IMG/VR virus record: IMGVR_UViG_3300021479_000050
Coordinates: 1-34,035 of that record
DNA length: 34,035 nt
Source: a virus
Direction: 5' to 3' (one strand)
Below, piece after piece: positions 21,701-29,478 of this stretch. The notes under the pieces were generated by a model that was not told the origin of the DNA, did not search any database, and saw only the letters and a program-made list of their open reading frames with translations. The position numbers and the translations under genes were made by a program. Position 1 is the stretch's first letter, and each line of letters begins with the position of its first letter.

Positions 21701-21925
21701 TCAGACGACACGATTCAGGCTCTGCGACAGCGTGGGATCGAGCGATGCTTCGGCCTCGCCAGTCATCATGAGCACGTGCTCCAATTCTGATTTTTGCGAC
21801 TGCTCGACATTTTCTTCGGCCGCCTGCTGATAAAAATCCTGTACGAGCGAATCCCACGTGCGAGCGCCGTAGGCCGAGGTATACCCCTCGACCTTCGCCA
21901 TTGCTTCGCGATCAAGCTTTTCCAT
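21701..21925 (-). CDS. Small hypothetical protein between portal and MuF
   Basis: 74 aa, acidic and helical (DSLVQDFYQQAAEENVEQSQ, then LEHVLMMTGEAEASL). Its ATG overlaps the last codons of the portal by 14 bp, with AGGAAGCCAT before it. It has no membrane segment or Cys. It may be a small internal head protein; function not recognised. Confidence 0.6.
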   Translation of the reverse strand: MEKLDREAMAKVEGYTSAYGARTWDSLVQDFYQQAAEENVEQSQKSELEHVLMMTGEAEASLDPTLSQSLNRVV

Positions 21926-24056
21926 ATGGCTTCCTAAGGTGACCGGTTCCGAGCCAGGTCTTGAACTCGTTCATCGACACGCGATGTACGGACATGATGC
22001 GGTCGACGCCCTGCAGATCACTGTAGCTGGACACGTAGGCCGCACACGCGCGTGCCTGCGATGAGAACCCGAGCATGCACTTGTGCTCATCAAAAAATCC
22101 GGTGCGCAGATCCTTCTGGTTGATGATGTATACGGTGTCCGCGCCGCGATCGGGCCCGAGGAAGCAATCCATTCCTTCGTCCGGACCTTCGGCCGAACCC
22201 GTACCGATCACGTAGCCGTAGTCGGCCGCCATGACAGCTTGCCACGGGTTCGCAGGATCACGCGAGGTGCGCGTCGTGCCGCGCTGATTCTCGATGTGCA
22301 ACTTCAACCCGTGGAACTCGCACGTCACTGGGCCGCACGCCGCGTCATCGAACGGCCGCGCACCTGGCATTACACCACTCGGCATGACGTCGGGTTTGGG
22401 TAGAACGTTCGGAGGGTAGCCGGGCTCGCTGTACGGAATAGCGTGACGCTCTTCAGTGCCACCAGCAGAACCTGTCCATGCAGCGTCGCGGCTCTTCCCC
22501 TTTGCAGGAGCCGGTTTCTTACCGCCCGGGGGCGGACCACCTGGCACTGGGGGCTGATCCTCCATGCCCGGCATGACGATCCCCGCGGCAGGAACCGGAA
22601 CATCGGCGGCCGCTTCGATATCTTCTTCCGTGATGTTTGTCCACACGCCGGTTTCGTGCGACTGCTGTTTGAGCTCCTGCATCGCAGTCTTCGTGGACAC
22701 GGTGCCTTTTTCTTCGGCAGCCAGAATGGTCTCGGTGATGGTCTTGGCGATCGTGGCCTTTTCGAGCTCGGTCGGTTGCCACAGGGGCTTGAACGCGATG
22801 CTCATCTCCTCGTTCCACTTGATCCCGAGGGATTGCGCCATCAGCTGATACACGACCGTCATCGGATACAGCAGATCAGCGATTTGGCGTGCCTTGATCA
22901 TGTCGTAGTAGTTGCGCATGTCGGACTCACCCGTGGCGTTCATGCCGGCGGGTGATGTGCCGAACAGCTTTGTCTGCGGCATCTGCAGGGCGCCCGACAA
23001 TTGCTGCCGGAACTCTTGCAGAATCTCGGCCAGCCCCGCGAACGCGGCGTGCTCATGACCTTCGTATTCGTCTTCCAGGTCCATCAAGGTGACACCCTCG
23101 ATGCCCTGCTGCGAGCGCATAACTTCGAGCAGTGCGCGCACACCTTCCATCGCGACTTCGTTCGAGCCGACGAGCTCTTTCAGGCCCTTCAGCTTGTATG
23201 TGCGGATGAACGATTTGTCGATCAGCTGCGCGGCGCCGCTCGATCCGATGTCGAACGCATTGATCCGGTCCTGGATCGTTTCGAGCACGGACAGGCCCCA
23301 GAGATTCTCCTGGATCGCCTGCCAGTACGGAAGCTCGTTTCCGACCATGCGGATCACGCGCGAGTGATGAATTTTCATGCGCGGCAGGGCCGGCGCGTCC
23401 GCGGTGACGCGGTAAAACATCGGCTTGCCGAATTGCGGGGACGCAAAGTCCGTTACCAGCAATTCCAGGCTCGGGTCGACCATCCACCGGTCGAGCGGGA
23501 AGATGCCCTTGAATTGATCCTTGCCGACGGTCTCGATTCGCAGCGGAGTCGAAGGATCCTGGTTGGCGATTATGATGAACCCGAGGCACCCGCCGTACAG
23601 GCGCGACCACTTCAGCACCGACCGGACGCTCGTCCACAGATTAAGCTTCGTGGCCTCGGCATCCATCTTACGGATGTCCTTTGGCTTCATAGGCCCATTA
23701 AGAATGACCCCTTGACGAGTCATGTCTTCCGGGATCACGTCGATGGCGTTCTTGCAGACGAACTGCCCGCGGTACATCCACTCGACCAGCGTGCGGATCC
23801 GGGTCAGCGGGTTGAAACTTGAACTGGAGCTTGAAAGGATGTTCTGCGCGCCGAGCCCGAGCCGGTGCGTGTAGTTGACGAACGAGTCCTGGAATTTGCC
23901 GCCGGCCGTCGCTTTCGCCATCGGGGTAACGGCGTCCATGCCGATACTCTCACGAGCCTTGCTGTCGGCGACTCTCGCGGAGCGTGCTACCTGAGTGACA
24001 CCCACTCGTTTTGGCGCGCCGGCACCGTTACGCTTCCCGCCCCATCCGTTCGCCAT
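21912..24056 (-). CDS. Portal protein with inorganic-pyrophosphatase-like C-terminal domain
   Basis: 714 aa from the ATG at 24056 (MANGWGGKRNGAG) with GAGG eight bases before it. Residues ~70-480 are the DUF1073/HI1409-type portal: VEWMYRGQFVCKNAIDVIPE, WSRLYGGCLGFIII, later QTKLFGTSPAGMNATGESD. A Pro/Gly linker (~495-530) leads to residues ~579-705. That region resembles the InPase-like domain of phage proteins: LKLHIENQRGTTR, MAADYGYVIGTGSAEGPDEG, CFLGPDRG, FFDEHKCMLGF and FKTWLGTGH. The portal forms the DNA gate. The added domain may act on the virion interior or be structural; enzyme activity is not shown. Confidence 0.85.
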   Translation of the reverse strand: MANGWGGKRNGAGAPKRVGVTQVARSARVADSKARESIGMDAVTPMAKATAGGKFQDSFVNYTHRLGLGAQNILSSSSSSFNPLTRIRTLVEWMYRGQFVCKNAIDVIPEDMTRQGVILNGPMKPKDIRKMDAEATKLNLWTSVRSVLKWSRLYGGCLGFIIIANQDPSTPLRIETVGKDQFKGIFPLDRWMVDPSLELLVTDFASPQFGKPMFYRVTADAPALPRMKIHHSRVIRMVGNELPYWQAIQENLWGLSVLETIQDRINAFDIGSSGAAQLIDKSFIRTYKLKGLKELVGSNEVAMEGVRALLEVMRSQQGIEGVTLMDLEDEYEGHEHAAFAGLAEILQEFRQQLSGALQMPQTKLFGTSPAGMNATGESDMRNYYDMIKARQIADLLYPMTVVYQLMAQSLGIKWNEEMSIAFKPLWQPTELEKATIAKTITETILAAEEKGTVSTKTAMQELKQQSHETGVWTNITEEDIEAAADVPVPAAGIVMPGMEDQPPVPGGPPPGGKKPAPAKGKSRDAAWTGSAGGTEERHAIPYSEPGYPPNVLPKPDVMPSGVMPGARPFDDAACGPVTCEFHGLKLHIENQRGTTRTSRDPANPWQAVMAADYGYVIGTGSAEGPDEGMDCFLGPDRGADTVYIINQKDLRTGFFDEHKCMLGFSSQARACAAYVSSYSDLQGVDRIMSVHRVSMNEFKTWLGTGHLRKPYGKA

Positions 24057-24099
24057 CTTGAAACCTCGATTCAAATTGAATCAAGATGGTATCACCGAA

Positions 24100-24901: not shown

Positions 24902-25498
24902 CTACGCGATCCTGTGCGTCGGTTGGGGCAGACGTGAGCTTGCGCCCAGAACCGGCCTCTGATCGAATGCTTCGCCGGCATTGGGTGCCACAATGACGGT
25001 GGTACCCGGATCGGCCAACACCGGGGGCGCGATCTCGACTGTGCCACCACCCGCCCGCACAACCTCGCCAGTGCGCGGATCGACAGCATGGGGAACGCCA
25101 GTCTCGCGTGTCAGGCGACCGGCTTCAACGTCGCCGGCCGGATTAAGCCAGGTGCCGATCTCGACCATTTCACCTTCGCCATTCTGCGCGAAGCGGCCAG
25201 TACCCTTGAAATGTTTCCCCGTAGTTGCCGGGATTTGCGTCACTTGCAAATCCTTCGATTGCAGGATTGGATCGCCGGCCAGTGCTGACGCTTTCTTCGT
25301 TAGACGCGGCGCGCCGCCACCTGATTCCTTCTTCGAGCGCGGGGCCGTAACGAAATCAAGGGCGGCCTGCAGCTGTTCACGCCACGCTTGGTCATGAGGC
25401 GATCCGGGCTCATTGTCATAGATAAATGACTGCAGCGGATCCATCTGACCGTTCTGCGCAAGCGCAGCGTTGCATTCATCCCAGGTCGGCAGAATCAC
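24902..25498 (-). CDS. Hypothetical protein
   Basis: 198 aa, ATGA overlap with its upstream neighbour. It is largely Pro/Gly-rich and looks partly disordered: an N-terminal helix (WDECNAALAQNGQMDPLQSF), a middle with TGKHFKGTGRFAQNGEGEMV and GTWLNPAGDVEAGRLTRETG, and a beta-like end (GGTVEIAPPVLADPGTTVIV). No domain recognised. Its pairing with the next gene suggests a joint role. Confidence 0.5.
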   Translation of the reverse strand: MILPTWDECNAALAQNGQMDPLQSFIYDNEPGSPHDQAWREQLQAALDFVTAPRSKKESGGGAPRLTKKASALAGDPILQSKDLQVTQIPATTGKHFKGTGRFAQNGEGEMVEIGTWLNPAGDVEAGRLTRETGVPHAVDPRTGEVVRAGGGTVEIAPPVLADPGTTVIVAPNAGEAFDQRPVLGASSRLPQPTHRIA

Positions 25499-27016: not shown

Positions 27017-27397
27017 TCAATCCTTATTCGGCACACCGTGCGATTGGCGCAACGACTCCATCAACCGCTCTTTGCAGTTGCTCTCCACTATATCATGGAC
27101 CTGTTTCGCCGACAGCGTAAGATTACCGTAAATCCAATTCAGGGTATTGATTGCCTGCTGATCGTCGTCGTCGTCTTTGTAGATGCACGTCAGCCGATGA
27201 GCGGGATCGCGACAGATCTCCAGAGTCGCCGCCATCACACCGAGTTGCATCTTGAGGGACGCGTTCTTGACGTCGAACGCTTCCTGCTTCGCGTCCCACG
27301 CGAACGCGTGGCATTCGGTTTCGTTCATCGTGTGGGCAACGGCGGCCCCGGCAACAGCATAGATCGCGAGCATGATCGAAAACGACAGGCTTCTCAT
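27017..27397 (-). CDS. Exported protein with signal peptide, paralogue of the lipoprotein
   Basis: 126 aa from the ATG at 27397, overlapping the thyX stop (TGATG) with AAAGGA nine bases upstream. The first 21 residues (RSLSFSIMLAIYAVAGAAVA) are a signal peptide with an A-V-A cleavage site. The mature sequence HTMNETECHAFAWDAKQEAF, KDDDDDQQAINTLNWIYGNL and SAKQVHDIVESNCKERL parallels the next gene. Four cysteines could form disulfides in the periplasm. Function unknown. Confidence 0.65.
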   Translation of the reverse strand: MRSLSFSIMLAIYAVAGAAVAHTMNETECHAFAWDAKQEAFDVKNASLKMQLGVMAATLEICRDPAHRLTCIYKDDDDDQQAINTLNWIYGNLTLSAKQVHDIVESNCKERLMESLRQSHGVPNKD

Positions 27398-28074
27398 CAC
27401 AGGGTCCTTTCAAATGCGGCCACAGCCGCGGGAACGTATGGGCGAATCAGGTCGAGCATGGCTTCGGCGTAGACCCGTATTTCAAACTGCGCATGCTCGT
27501 GCAAACGAAGCCTAAGGAAACCGAACAAGTTGTGCAGATCGACGGTCGCGAAGTGCTTGCTGTACGTGTTCAGTGGCAGCACGCCGCGCGCGAGCTCGCG
27601 GGGGCAACCGAGCGACAGGAGTTTTCTGTAGCTCCGGAACGATTCCAGACACGCGCATCGGATCTCGTCCTGTATCTCAGCCGCATTCTCATTTACCTCG
27701 TCAGTCCGCATCTGCTTGTTGTGCGTCGACTGCGTCGTGATCTGGTCAAGCGCCGGCACGTAGAAGCACTCTTCGAGTTCGCTGTAGCGACCCGACTGCT
27801 CGTTGTACTTCCAGGTGCGATGCCGATGCCACTGGCGGAAGTTGAAGATTGGCGCCTTCGCCTCGAAGCAGAAAATAACGTGCTCGAACGGCGACGTGTG
27901 CTTGTTTTCCATCAGGTAGGCAATCAGCTTTTCGTCCGACCCATCGTTGCGCGGCGCGGCGTTGTACGACACCCGGGCCGCGCGAACGATCATCTGGTCG
28001 TCGCCCATGTGGTCGACCAGGCGCACCATGCCGTGATCCAGCACGGCGCGCCAATTGAGGATAGGCTCGCTCAT
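27397..28074 (-). CDS. thyX: Flavin-dependent thymidylate synthase
   Basis: 225 aa, normal for ThyX. It makes dTMP from dUMP with FAD, NADPH and methylene-tetrahydrofolate. The ThyX signature RHR-x7-S is present as RHRTWKYNEQS (84-94, with Ser94 at the expected place) followed by GRYSEL; the third position of the classic RHRxxS is Lys89 here. Other family pieces are MENKHTSPFEHVIFCF (55-70) and ARGVLPLNTYSKHF. It overlaps both neighbours by 3-4 bp. A phage copy boosts thymidine supply during replication and is common in phages. Confidence 0.95.
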   Translation of the reverse strand: MSEPILNWRAVLDHGMVRLVDHMGDDQMIVRAARVSYNAAPRNDGSDEKLIAYLMENKHTSPFEHVIFCFEAKAPIFNFRQWHRHRTWKYNEQSGRYSELEECFYVPALDQITTQSTHNKQMRTDEVNENAAEIQDEIRCACLESFRSYRKLLSLGCPRELARGVLPLNTYSKHFATVDLHNLFGFLRLRLHEHAQFEIRVYAEAMLDLIRPYVPAAVAAFERTL

Positions 28075-28493
28075 TTCGTCAGGTACGCCAGGGTCGACTC
28101 GATCGCGGCAACGTGCGCCGCGGGTACGAAGATCATCTTGCCGTCGGCCGGCGCCGGGCTCTGGCCAGGTTCGAAACCTGCGGCGTCACGCACCGCGGTC
28201 CAAAGACCTGCCGCATCCACGGGGCGGTCAGCATGCCACACTGCCGCATAGTAGAGTGCAGTCACGGCGTCGAGCAATGCCCCGCCGTCGTTATCGTTGG
28301 CATATTCGGTCAGCAGTACGGCGGCACGCGCCATGTACGACAGATTCTCCGAGTACAGGCCCTCGCGGTAGAAGCGATCGATCGACATGCGGATCTTCTC
28401 GACCAGCTGTTCGACGGGCATTGCCACGATCTCGGGGAATTCTTTTGGTGGTTTGGCGTCAATGGTCGCGACCAACTTGCTCTTCGGTGTCAT
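28071..28493 (-). CDS. Hypothetical protein between clpS and thyX
   Basis: 140 aa from the ATG at 28493 (MTPKSKLVATIDAKPPKEFP), which gives an ATGA overlap with clpS. The body is helical: MPVEQLVEKIRMSIDRFYRE, LSYMARAAVLLTEYANDNDG, LLDAVTALYYAAVWHAD. The end (MIFVPAAHVAAIESTLAYLTK) is another helix. No membrane segment or catalytic motif. It may form a helical bundle. The tight coupling to clpS makes a shared function possible but unproven. Confidence 0.6.
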   Translation of the reverse strand: MTPKSKLVATIDAKPPKEFPEIVAMPVEQLVEKIRMSIDRFYREGLYSENLSYMARAAVLLTEYANDNDGGALLDAVTALYYAAVWHADRPVDAAGLWTAVRDAAGFEPGQSPAPADGKMIFVPAAHVAAIESTLAYLTK

Positions 28494-28810
28494 GCTACCT
28501 CCATAGTGCATTGCAGGGGATGTCTGTGATTGCTTGCCGTGCCACGAACTTGGTAGACTCGAGTCTCGGCAATTTGATGAGAATATACACCGGCCACGGC
28601 ACGCCCTTCAGTATGAACCTTGAGCATGATATCGACCGCTTCGAAAGCAGTTTTGCCGAAAATCTGGATCAACAACTCGACCACGAATTCGCCCGGCGTG
28701 ATATCGTCATTGATCAGAATCACAGCCCATAGCGGGGGCGGGGCTGGTGGTTGGATTTGATTGGCCAGGATCGGAGTGATTTGGCCCGGCACTGCGAAGG
28801 TTTCACTCAT
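28490..28810 (-). CDS. clpS: ClpS-like N-degron adaptor
   Basis: 106 aa from the ATG at 28810 (one base after the upstream stop), the same length as E. coli ClpS and aligning to it without gaps. The ClpS core is clear: WAVILINDDITPGEFVVELL (28-47), IMLKVHTEGRAVAGVYSHQ (61-79), AETRVYQ and HPLQCTMEV. Substrate-pocket residues N34, D35, D36, T38, V43, M62, V65, H66 and L99 match the E. coli positions. The gatekeeper Met40 is replaced by Gly. A 27-residue Pro-rich N-terminal arm is kept. It should deliver N-degron substrates to host ClpAP in the cytoplasm. Confidence 0.9.
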   Translation of the reverse strand: MSETFAVPGQITPILANQIQPPAPPPLWAVILINDDITPGEFVVELLIQIFGKTAFEAVDIMLKVHTEGRAVAGVYSHQIAETRVYQVRGTASNHRHPLQCTMEVA

Positions 28811-28811
28811 T

Positions 28812-28970
28812 TCATTCCCCACTGAGACGCGTATAGGCGCCCGCACGTTCGAGCTCTTCGATCTCTTCCTCGACTTCTTCGAGCGTCTCGCGATGACCGA
28901 GCCCGGTACGTAACGCCACGCTGACGCGAACCAGAATACCCCGCAGTCGGTTGCGATCCTCGGGAGTCAT
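28812..28970 (-). CDS. Small acidic coiled-coil protein
   Basis: 52 aa from the ATG at 28970 (MTPEDRNRLRGILVRV), overlapping the previous stop by ATGA. The second half, HRETLEEVEEEIEELERAG, is a strongly charged helix. It lies directly upstream of clpS with one base between them. It may be a small oligomer or a regulator of its neighbour; no family recognised. Confidence 0.5.
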   Translation of the reverse strand: MTPEDRNRLRGILVRVSVALRTGLGHRETLEEVEEEIEELERAGAYTRLSGE

Positions 28971-29173
28971 CGCGTCGTGTCCCGAGTGATCAACAGATCC
29001 GGGAAGTGACCCCATGGATGCACACTCATACCGAACGCGTAGTTACGGCATTGCTCCATGTCAATGAAATCTTTCGAATGACTAACTTCCAGTCGTCCGT
29101 CGTACCAAACCTCCCGGCGACTGCTGGTACAGTTGTCGAACGTACCGGTTGGATGCTTCGGTTTCGTGGCCAT
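28967..29173 (-). CDS. Small hypothetical protein
   Basis: 68 aa from the ATG at 29173, overlapping the stop of the small membrane protein (TGATG). Sequence: FDNCTSSRREVWYDGRLEVS, then DFIDMEQCRNYAFGMSVHPW. It has two cysteines and aromatic residues in an alternating pattern, suggesting a compact beta fold. Function unknown. Confidence 0.5.
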   Translation of the reverse strand: MATKPKHPTGTFDNCTSSRREVWYDGRLEVSHSKDFIDMEQCRNYAFGMSVHPWGHFPDLLITRDTTR

Positions 29174-29283
29174 CACTCAGTATCCTTCCAGTTGAATTCG
29201 CTCGGAGTCACTCGAACGAACATCCATGCAAGCAGGACGCCGAACATGACCAGTAATGATAGGAACACTTGATCGGGAGTCAT
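29173..29283 (-). CDS. Tiny single-span membrane protein (36 aa)
   Basis: The ATG at 29283 follows the upstream stop with no gap, and the TGA at 29173 overlaps the next start. The product begins MTPDQVFLSLLVMFGVLLAW, with a single hydrophobic span (~6-24), then a short polar tail FNWKDTE. Being exactly fitted between two overlapping genes argues it is real. Role unknown. Confidence 0.6.
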   Translation of the reverse strand: MTPDQVFLSLLVMFGVLLAWMFVRVTPSEFNWKDTE

Positions 29284-29478
29284 TCAGTCCTCCACGAATT
29301 GCCGGATCTCGGCGTCGAATTGAGTGTCGCGCTCGCGGGCGCCAAGGATGTGTTTGGCCTCTTCGAGCGACTTGAATTTGTCGCGCGTGCGCCGGCCGGC
29401 GCGGTCGGGCGGGTTGAGCATGTTGCGGATGTTCCGCTCGACCGCTTCTTCGTACCGCTGCTGTCGGGTCTTAGCCAT
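29284..29478 (-). CDS. Small basic hypothetical protein
   Basis: 64 aa from the ATG at 29478, overlapping the upstream TGA (TGATG). It is highly charged and helical: AKTRQQRYEEAVERNIRNML, then DKFKSLEEAKHILGARERD. It may bind nucleic acid or form a helical hairpin. No family recognised. Confidence 0.55.
   Translation of the reverse strand: MAKTRQQRYEEAVERNIRNMLNPPDRAGRRTRDKFKSLEEAKHILGARERDTQFDAEIRQFVED

Follow-up and report, generated by a model that had tools for sequence, protein, structure and literature searches.

A phage ClpS with glycine in place of the Met40 gatekeeper: a probable N-degron adaptor and candidate for broadened N-degron choice

Introduction

The adaptor ClpS decides, on the basis of the N-terminal amino acid, which bacterial proteins are passed to the ClpAP protease. 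One residue in ClpS decides which N-termini are degradation signals, and bacteria almost never change that residue. In E. coli it is Met40, the gatekeeper that excludes beta-branched residues (PMC12493166). Here we asked what a ClpS encoded by a phage may do when this methionine is replaced by glycine. The gene is found on an IMG/VR virus record of 34,035 bases, which was analysed over its whole length (the window) and has no cellular genome behind it. An earlier sequence-only reading had described the protein as a phage ClpS with an opened gate and, possibly, a broadened choice of N-terminal residues.

The clpS gene and its neighbours

The phage is contractile-tailed, with genes for the head, portal, tail sheath and baseplate in the window. 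The clpS ORF is intact from 28810 to 28490; the coordinates of the earlier reading were right, and the strand, which it left out, is minus. The features of the region are listed below.

28490 to 28810, minus strand: clpS, 106 aa, with the ATG at 28810 and the stop TGA at 28492-28490
28691 to 28693, minus strand: gate codon 40 of clpS, GGC (Gly), where E. coli has Met and the sister contig L002 has GCC (Ala)
28733 to 28810, minus strand: N-terminal extension (NTE) of ClpS, residues 1-26, with the proline-rich junction PPAPPP at its end (from the sequence and comparison with L002)
28493 to 28732, minus strand: ClpS core domain, residues 27-106, with the pocket and the amino-group contacts N34/D35/H66 (from Pfam, alignment and Foldseek)
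28661 to 28810, minus strand: mosaic patch of clpS, codons 1-50, carrying the NTE and the gate (from divergence from L002)
28071 to 28493, minus strand: ORF downstream of clpS, function unassigned, probable start ATG 28493
27397 to 28074, minus strand: thyX, flavin-dependent thymidylate synthase, 225 aa (Pfam Thy1, E = 3.9e-52; PHROG 85)
28812 to 29015, minus strand: small ORF upstream of clpS, 67 aa, ending 1 nt before the clpS start

The clpS gene is part of a tight gene row, in which the 67-aa ORF is followed by clpS, by the ORF whose ATG at 28493 overlaps the clpS stop (ATGA), and then by thyX, which belongs to the same accessory block. An alternative ATG at 28511 would give the downstream ORF a longer start. 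No match in Pfam or PHROG was found for this ORF or for the 67-aa ORF. In L152, a related contig, the genes for terminase and portal lie at a shorter distance, with no ClpS or ThyX, and for this reason the clpS/thyX block looks like accessory cargo. ClpS was not found in 11 contigs with related portal genes, several of them short, nor beside thyX in the phage with the nearest ThyX (MW202455).

Promoter and terminator scans of the window gave matches at chance level. Upstream of the clpS gene row, at 29838-29810 on the minus strand, there is a TTGACA-17-CATAAT site with TG before the second hexamer, and the count of such sites is at the level of chance. The portal protein (21912-24074) has a C-terminal inorganic pyrophosphatase-like domain (PF18823). 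The relatives of the tail sheath protein come from Burkholderia, Bordetella, Edwardsiella and Acinetobacter phages, and were rejected as a guide to the host because their identity, below 50%, is too low.

Family, fold and binding pocket

The window protein matched the Pfam ClpS family (PF02617) with E = 2.2e-29 and 101.5 bits against a cut-off of 23. Its end-to-end alignment with E. coli ClpS, also 106 aa long, had no gaps, as the sequence-only reading had it, and 39 of 106 residues were identical (37/84 across residues 23-106). The pocket residues said to be kept (N34, D35, D36, T38, V43, M62, V65, H66 and L99) were all found to be the same as in E. coli, as was L32, and with them all three contacts to the alpha-amino group of the substrate (N34, D35, H66). 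The changes include Y37I, E79Q, K84R and the gate itself, where the codon at 28693-28691 is GGC and gives Gly in the string DDITPGEF, just as had been read. The gatekeeper of the canonical Leu/Phe/Tyr/Trp specificity is absent, with Gly40 in the window and Ala40 in L002.

An AlphaFold2 model of the protein had a mean pLDDT of 89.5 and about 98 in the core, with low confidence solely in approximately the first 20 residues. Foldseek matched this model to ClpS structures with E-values down to 2e-11. The superposition on Caulobacter ClpS M53A (3g1b_A) had an rmsd of 0.4 Å over 79 columns and a TM (target) of 0.98, and the window ClpS has the M53A combination of a small gate residue with the remaining pocket residues kept. 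Identity was 51% to Caulobacter ClpS as compared to 34% to A. tumefaciens ClpS2. We rejected an identity as alphaproteobacterial ClpS2, since the protein is closer to Caulobacter ClpS and the second ClpS copies included in our tree (L108, L109) are placed elsewhere.

The NTE of the window ClpS has a normal length and retains the proline junction. ClpS NTEs typically have tandem prolines at the junction and are poorly conserved, and this extension fits delivery to ClpAP (PMC9663308). On the face that contacts the ClpA N-domain the protein has Q79 and R84. Both changes are conservative, as the earlier reading had proposed and the alignment bore out, and both are uncommon: E79Q was found in 5 and K84R in 7 of 103 viral and other sequences, and neither in 30 Pseudomonadota sequences. 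Because they are uncommon, the strength of docking is uncertain.

A sister phage with a different small gate

IMG/VR yielded a single close relative, the 71.8-kb contig L002, which shares 97.3% identity with the window across 11.6 kb. Codons 51-106 of clpS and positions 28213-28612 were 100% identical in DNA between the two phages. Codons 1-50 had 82-93% DNA identity inside otherwise nearly identical DNA, and this divergence is, from the sequences, best explained by recombination between the two phages. The gate codon is GGC (Gly) in the window and GCC (Ala) in L002. In the NTE, codons 2-19 changed freely (pN 0.28, pS 0.27). Codons 20-50 had nine silent changes and one amino-acid change, which is the gate, and so few amino-acid changes have P of about 3e-5 under neutrality. 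The same nine to one over codons 20-106 indicates a protein that is maintained and is not the product of error. Judged from these substitutions, clpS is under purifying selection in the lineage of the window and L002. A small gate in both alleles supports selection for smallness, short of proof because two alleles are few.

More divergent patches in near-identical DNA were seen in comparison to L002, at 29113-29412, 27813-28112 and 24902-25498. They contain the 5' part of thyX, a 198-aa ORF and DNA between small ORFs, and suggest frequent local exchange.

The gate residue in bacteria and in other phages

ClpS was present in 372 of 398 Pseudomonadota genomes, and 344 of the 398 had the Met40 motif N-D-[DE]-x-T-P-Met-[DE]-F-V in its strict form, to which all our motif counts refer. 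The matching Gly/Ala motif was found six times across 84,980 species genomes. Three of these matches were true ClpS domains: Ala40 occurs in a clpS directly upstream of clpA in Rhodovibrio sodomensis and in a second ClpS of Roseibium sediminis, and Gly40 in Bradyrhizobium sp. CSA207, where the ClpS domain is joined to an AAA protein. The other three (L101, L103, L104) were chance matches outside ClpS and were discarded. The CSA207 fusion (L102:1458-3269, minus strand) is a 604-aa AAA protein with the ClpS domain at its N terminus, and three further ClpS matches were found in that genome. The opened gate proposed earlier is real and extremely rare; two related phages share it, as Gly or Ala, in a protein that is under purifying selection. 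On the question of whether Gly40 is specific to phages, these counts show Gly/Ala40 to be rare, yet not strictly phage-specific. The genome scan with the two-phage alignment gave no close bacterial donor of the window clpS.

ClpS is encoded in at least 588 IMG/VR contigs. Among the loci that were read (the best 80 and reference phages), residue 40 was Met in 77, and Ile, Phe, Leu or Val in a few. Eight IMG/VR contigs had the Gly/Ala motif, namely L002, six members of one Ala40 clade (L092, L093, L095, L096, L098 and L099) and L097, which likewise has Ala40, carries isocitrate lyase, may be bacterial and was left uncounted as a phage case. The six-member clade is nested inside the main viral ClpS clade with 100/100 support and the window lineage lies outside, which gives small gates in phages at least two origins; the tree has 85 columns and does not resolve a donor or ancestor of the window lineage.

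In the Ala40 clade, the neighbours of clpS are genes for Hsp20 and for a ClpX-like protein that has a zinc finger and an AAA domain (L098:8098-11036), a row that is a phage-borne proteostasis cluster. The jumbo phages L005, L008 and L009 have a small heat-shock protein gene followed by clpS, and in Atu_ph07 and Phosso a thymidine kinase gene lies between the two. Elsewhere in the pocket, Thr62 was found in 50 of 103 viral ClpS as compared to Met62 in 30 of 30 Pseudomonadota, and Ile at position 65 in 43 (a few of the 103 sequences are bacterial; the observation on residue 62 was made in the IMG/VR ClpS loci L013-L091). These residues suggest that the pocket may have been retuned in phage ClpS generally. 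Bacterial ClpS was also found inside virus collections, with L028, L051 and L053 reading as E. coli ClpS. The match to Acinetobacter 'phage MD-2021a' (CAKLQH020000043, L004) was rejected, being bacterial DNA with argC, clpS and clpA.

Proposed function and alternatives

Taken by analogy with M53A, the window ClpS is probably a functional, delivery-competent phage N-degron adaptor whose choice of N-degrons would be broadened. Wang et al. in 2008 and Roman-Hernandez et al. in 2009 are said to have found that M53A ClpS mediates degradation of proteins starting with Ile or Val. To our knowledge, experiments at position 40 have been done with Ala and none with Gly. In the proposed mechanism, beta-branched side chains would no longer be excluded from the pocket once the Met40 side chain is gone, and the adaptor would bind proteins starting with Ile or Val besides those with Leu, Phe, Tyr or Trp. 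It would then dock on the N-domain of host ClpA, its extension would enter the ClpA channel, and the bound proteins would be handed to ClpAP. During infection, host N-degron proteolysis would be widened or redirected in this way. The further suggestion of the sequence-only reading, that the new targets may be host defence or regulatory proteins, is speculative, and its interpretation was supported in part.

Broadened binding, as the sequence-only reading had suggested, is supported by the engineered M53A analogue, which has the same fold and admits Ile and Val. The reading as a functional adaptor is supported by the Pfam and fold identity and the kept pocket residues, and by two sister alleles that are both small-gated, with the gate half exchanged by recombination. 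The dominance of Met40 in bacteria and phages, against which Gly and Ala are rare, and a second phage clade with Ala40, by which small gates arose more than once, point the same way. As a counterpoint, Gly could loosen the start of helix 40-51.

The alternative that survives best, to which we give a low but real probability, is that the gate change is of little consequence, a small residue being merely tolerated, and that occupancy of ClpA by the phage protein shifts ClpAP from ssrA-tagged or direct substrates to ordinary N-degron substrates. ClpS does inhibit the degradation of ssrA-tagged substrates (PMC9663308), Met40 phage ClpS, the majority, must serve a purpose with ordinary specificity, and some phages vary at position 40 to I, V, L, F and others. 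However, bacteria and phages almost always have Met40, and the two exchanged alleles of the window lineage keep small residues in an otherwise unchanging core. A neutral site should show other residues too, though two alleles are few.

It is rather improbable that the pocket was enlarged for one specific N-terminus (an unusual or modified residue, say, or the end of one phage or host protein) instead of for Ile and Val broadly. Gly gives more room than the Ala that was studied, and phages seem to retune ClpS pockets at other places, as the Thr62 counts show (50/103, against Met62 in 30/30 bacteria); yet the remaining pocket of the window protein is canonical, and in its structure M53A has the fold of the wild type. 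A dominant inhibitor, which would bind ClpA or N-degron proteins without delivering them and so block host N-degron proteolysis, could be read from E79Q and K84R on the ClpA-contact face and from an NTE free to vary in sequence. We consider it very improbable, as the NTE keeps its normal length and proline junction, the core is under strong purifying selection and both contact changes are conservative. Sequencing error, gene decay or contaminating bacterial DNA is refuted by the different small residue at the same place in the sister contig, the open frame with its excess of silent changes and the phage structural genes that flank clpS.

We therefore retain the broadened adaptor as the preferred reading. 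A wider proposal, which we offer tentatively and regard as doubtful, is that phages repeatedly evolved small-gate ClpS so that host ClpAP degrades proteins with otherwise spared beta-branched N-termini, with Gly and Ala alleles circulating and recombining in one population. The small-gate finding is modest, clearly delimited and readily testable. With a small-gate phage lineage and an independent second case, the exclusion of Ile and Val can be studied in a natural experiment, and targets from host or phage can be sought directly with such proteins. They are also ready-made natural candidates for the binders of N-terminal Ile and Val that are wanted for protein sequencing.

Comparison with known systems

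It was previously suggested that phage ClpS brings targets to host ClpAP (PMC7824862), and the new part here is the natural small-gate variant. In the literature searched, which took in few subscription papers, no natural ClpS with Gly or Ala at position 40 was reported. Natural binding of Ile and/or Val is reported for cyanobacterial ClpS2 and apicoplast ClpS (PMC7966870); these are distant sequences that possibly took other routes to this specificity. The clpS of Rhodovibrio sodomensis shares Ala40 with L002, but is chromosomal and next to clpA.

As a stand-alone phage adaptor the window ClpS resembles those of Sinorhizobium phage Phosso, Agrobacterium phage Atu_ph07 and IMG/VR contigs. The ClpS of jumbo and other phages differ from it in having mostly Met40 and in many cases Thr62, and in forming a separate clade of the tree. 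The six-member clade shares a phage Ala40 with L002, but differs by Thr62/Ile65, low GC, its Hsp20 and ClpX-like neighbours and an independent origin.

With canonical ClpS of E. coli and Caulobacter the window protein shares the fold, the amino-group contacts, the pocket and an NTE with a proline junction. It departs from them by Gly in place of Met40 and by E79Q, K84R and Y37I, and its gene lies near thyX and not beside clpA. Caulobacter ClpS M53A (PDB 3g1b, 3g3p) is similar in the small gate, the fold and the remaining pocket, at 51% identity in the structural alignment. M53A, however, is a laboratory mutant with Ala, whereas the window has Gly at this position and its sister L002 has Ala.
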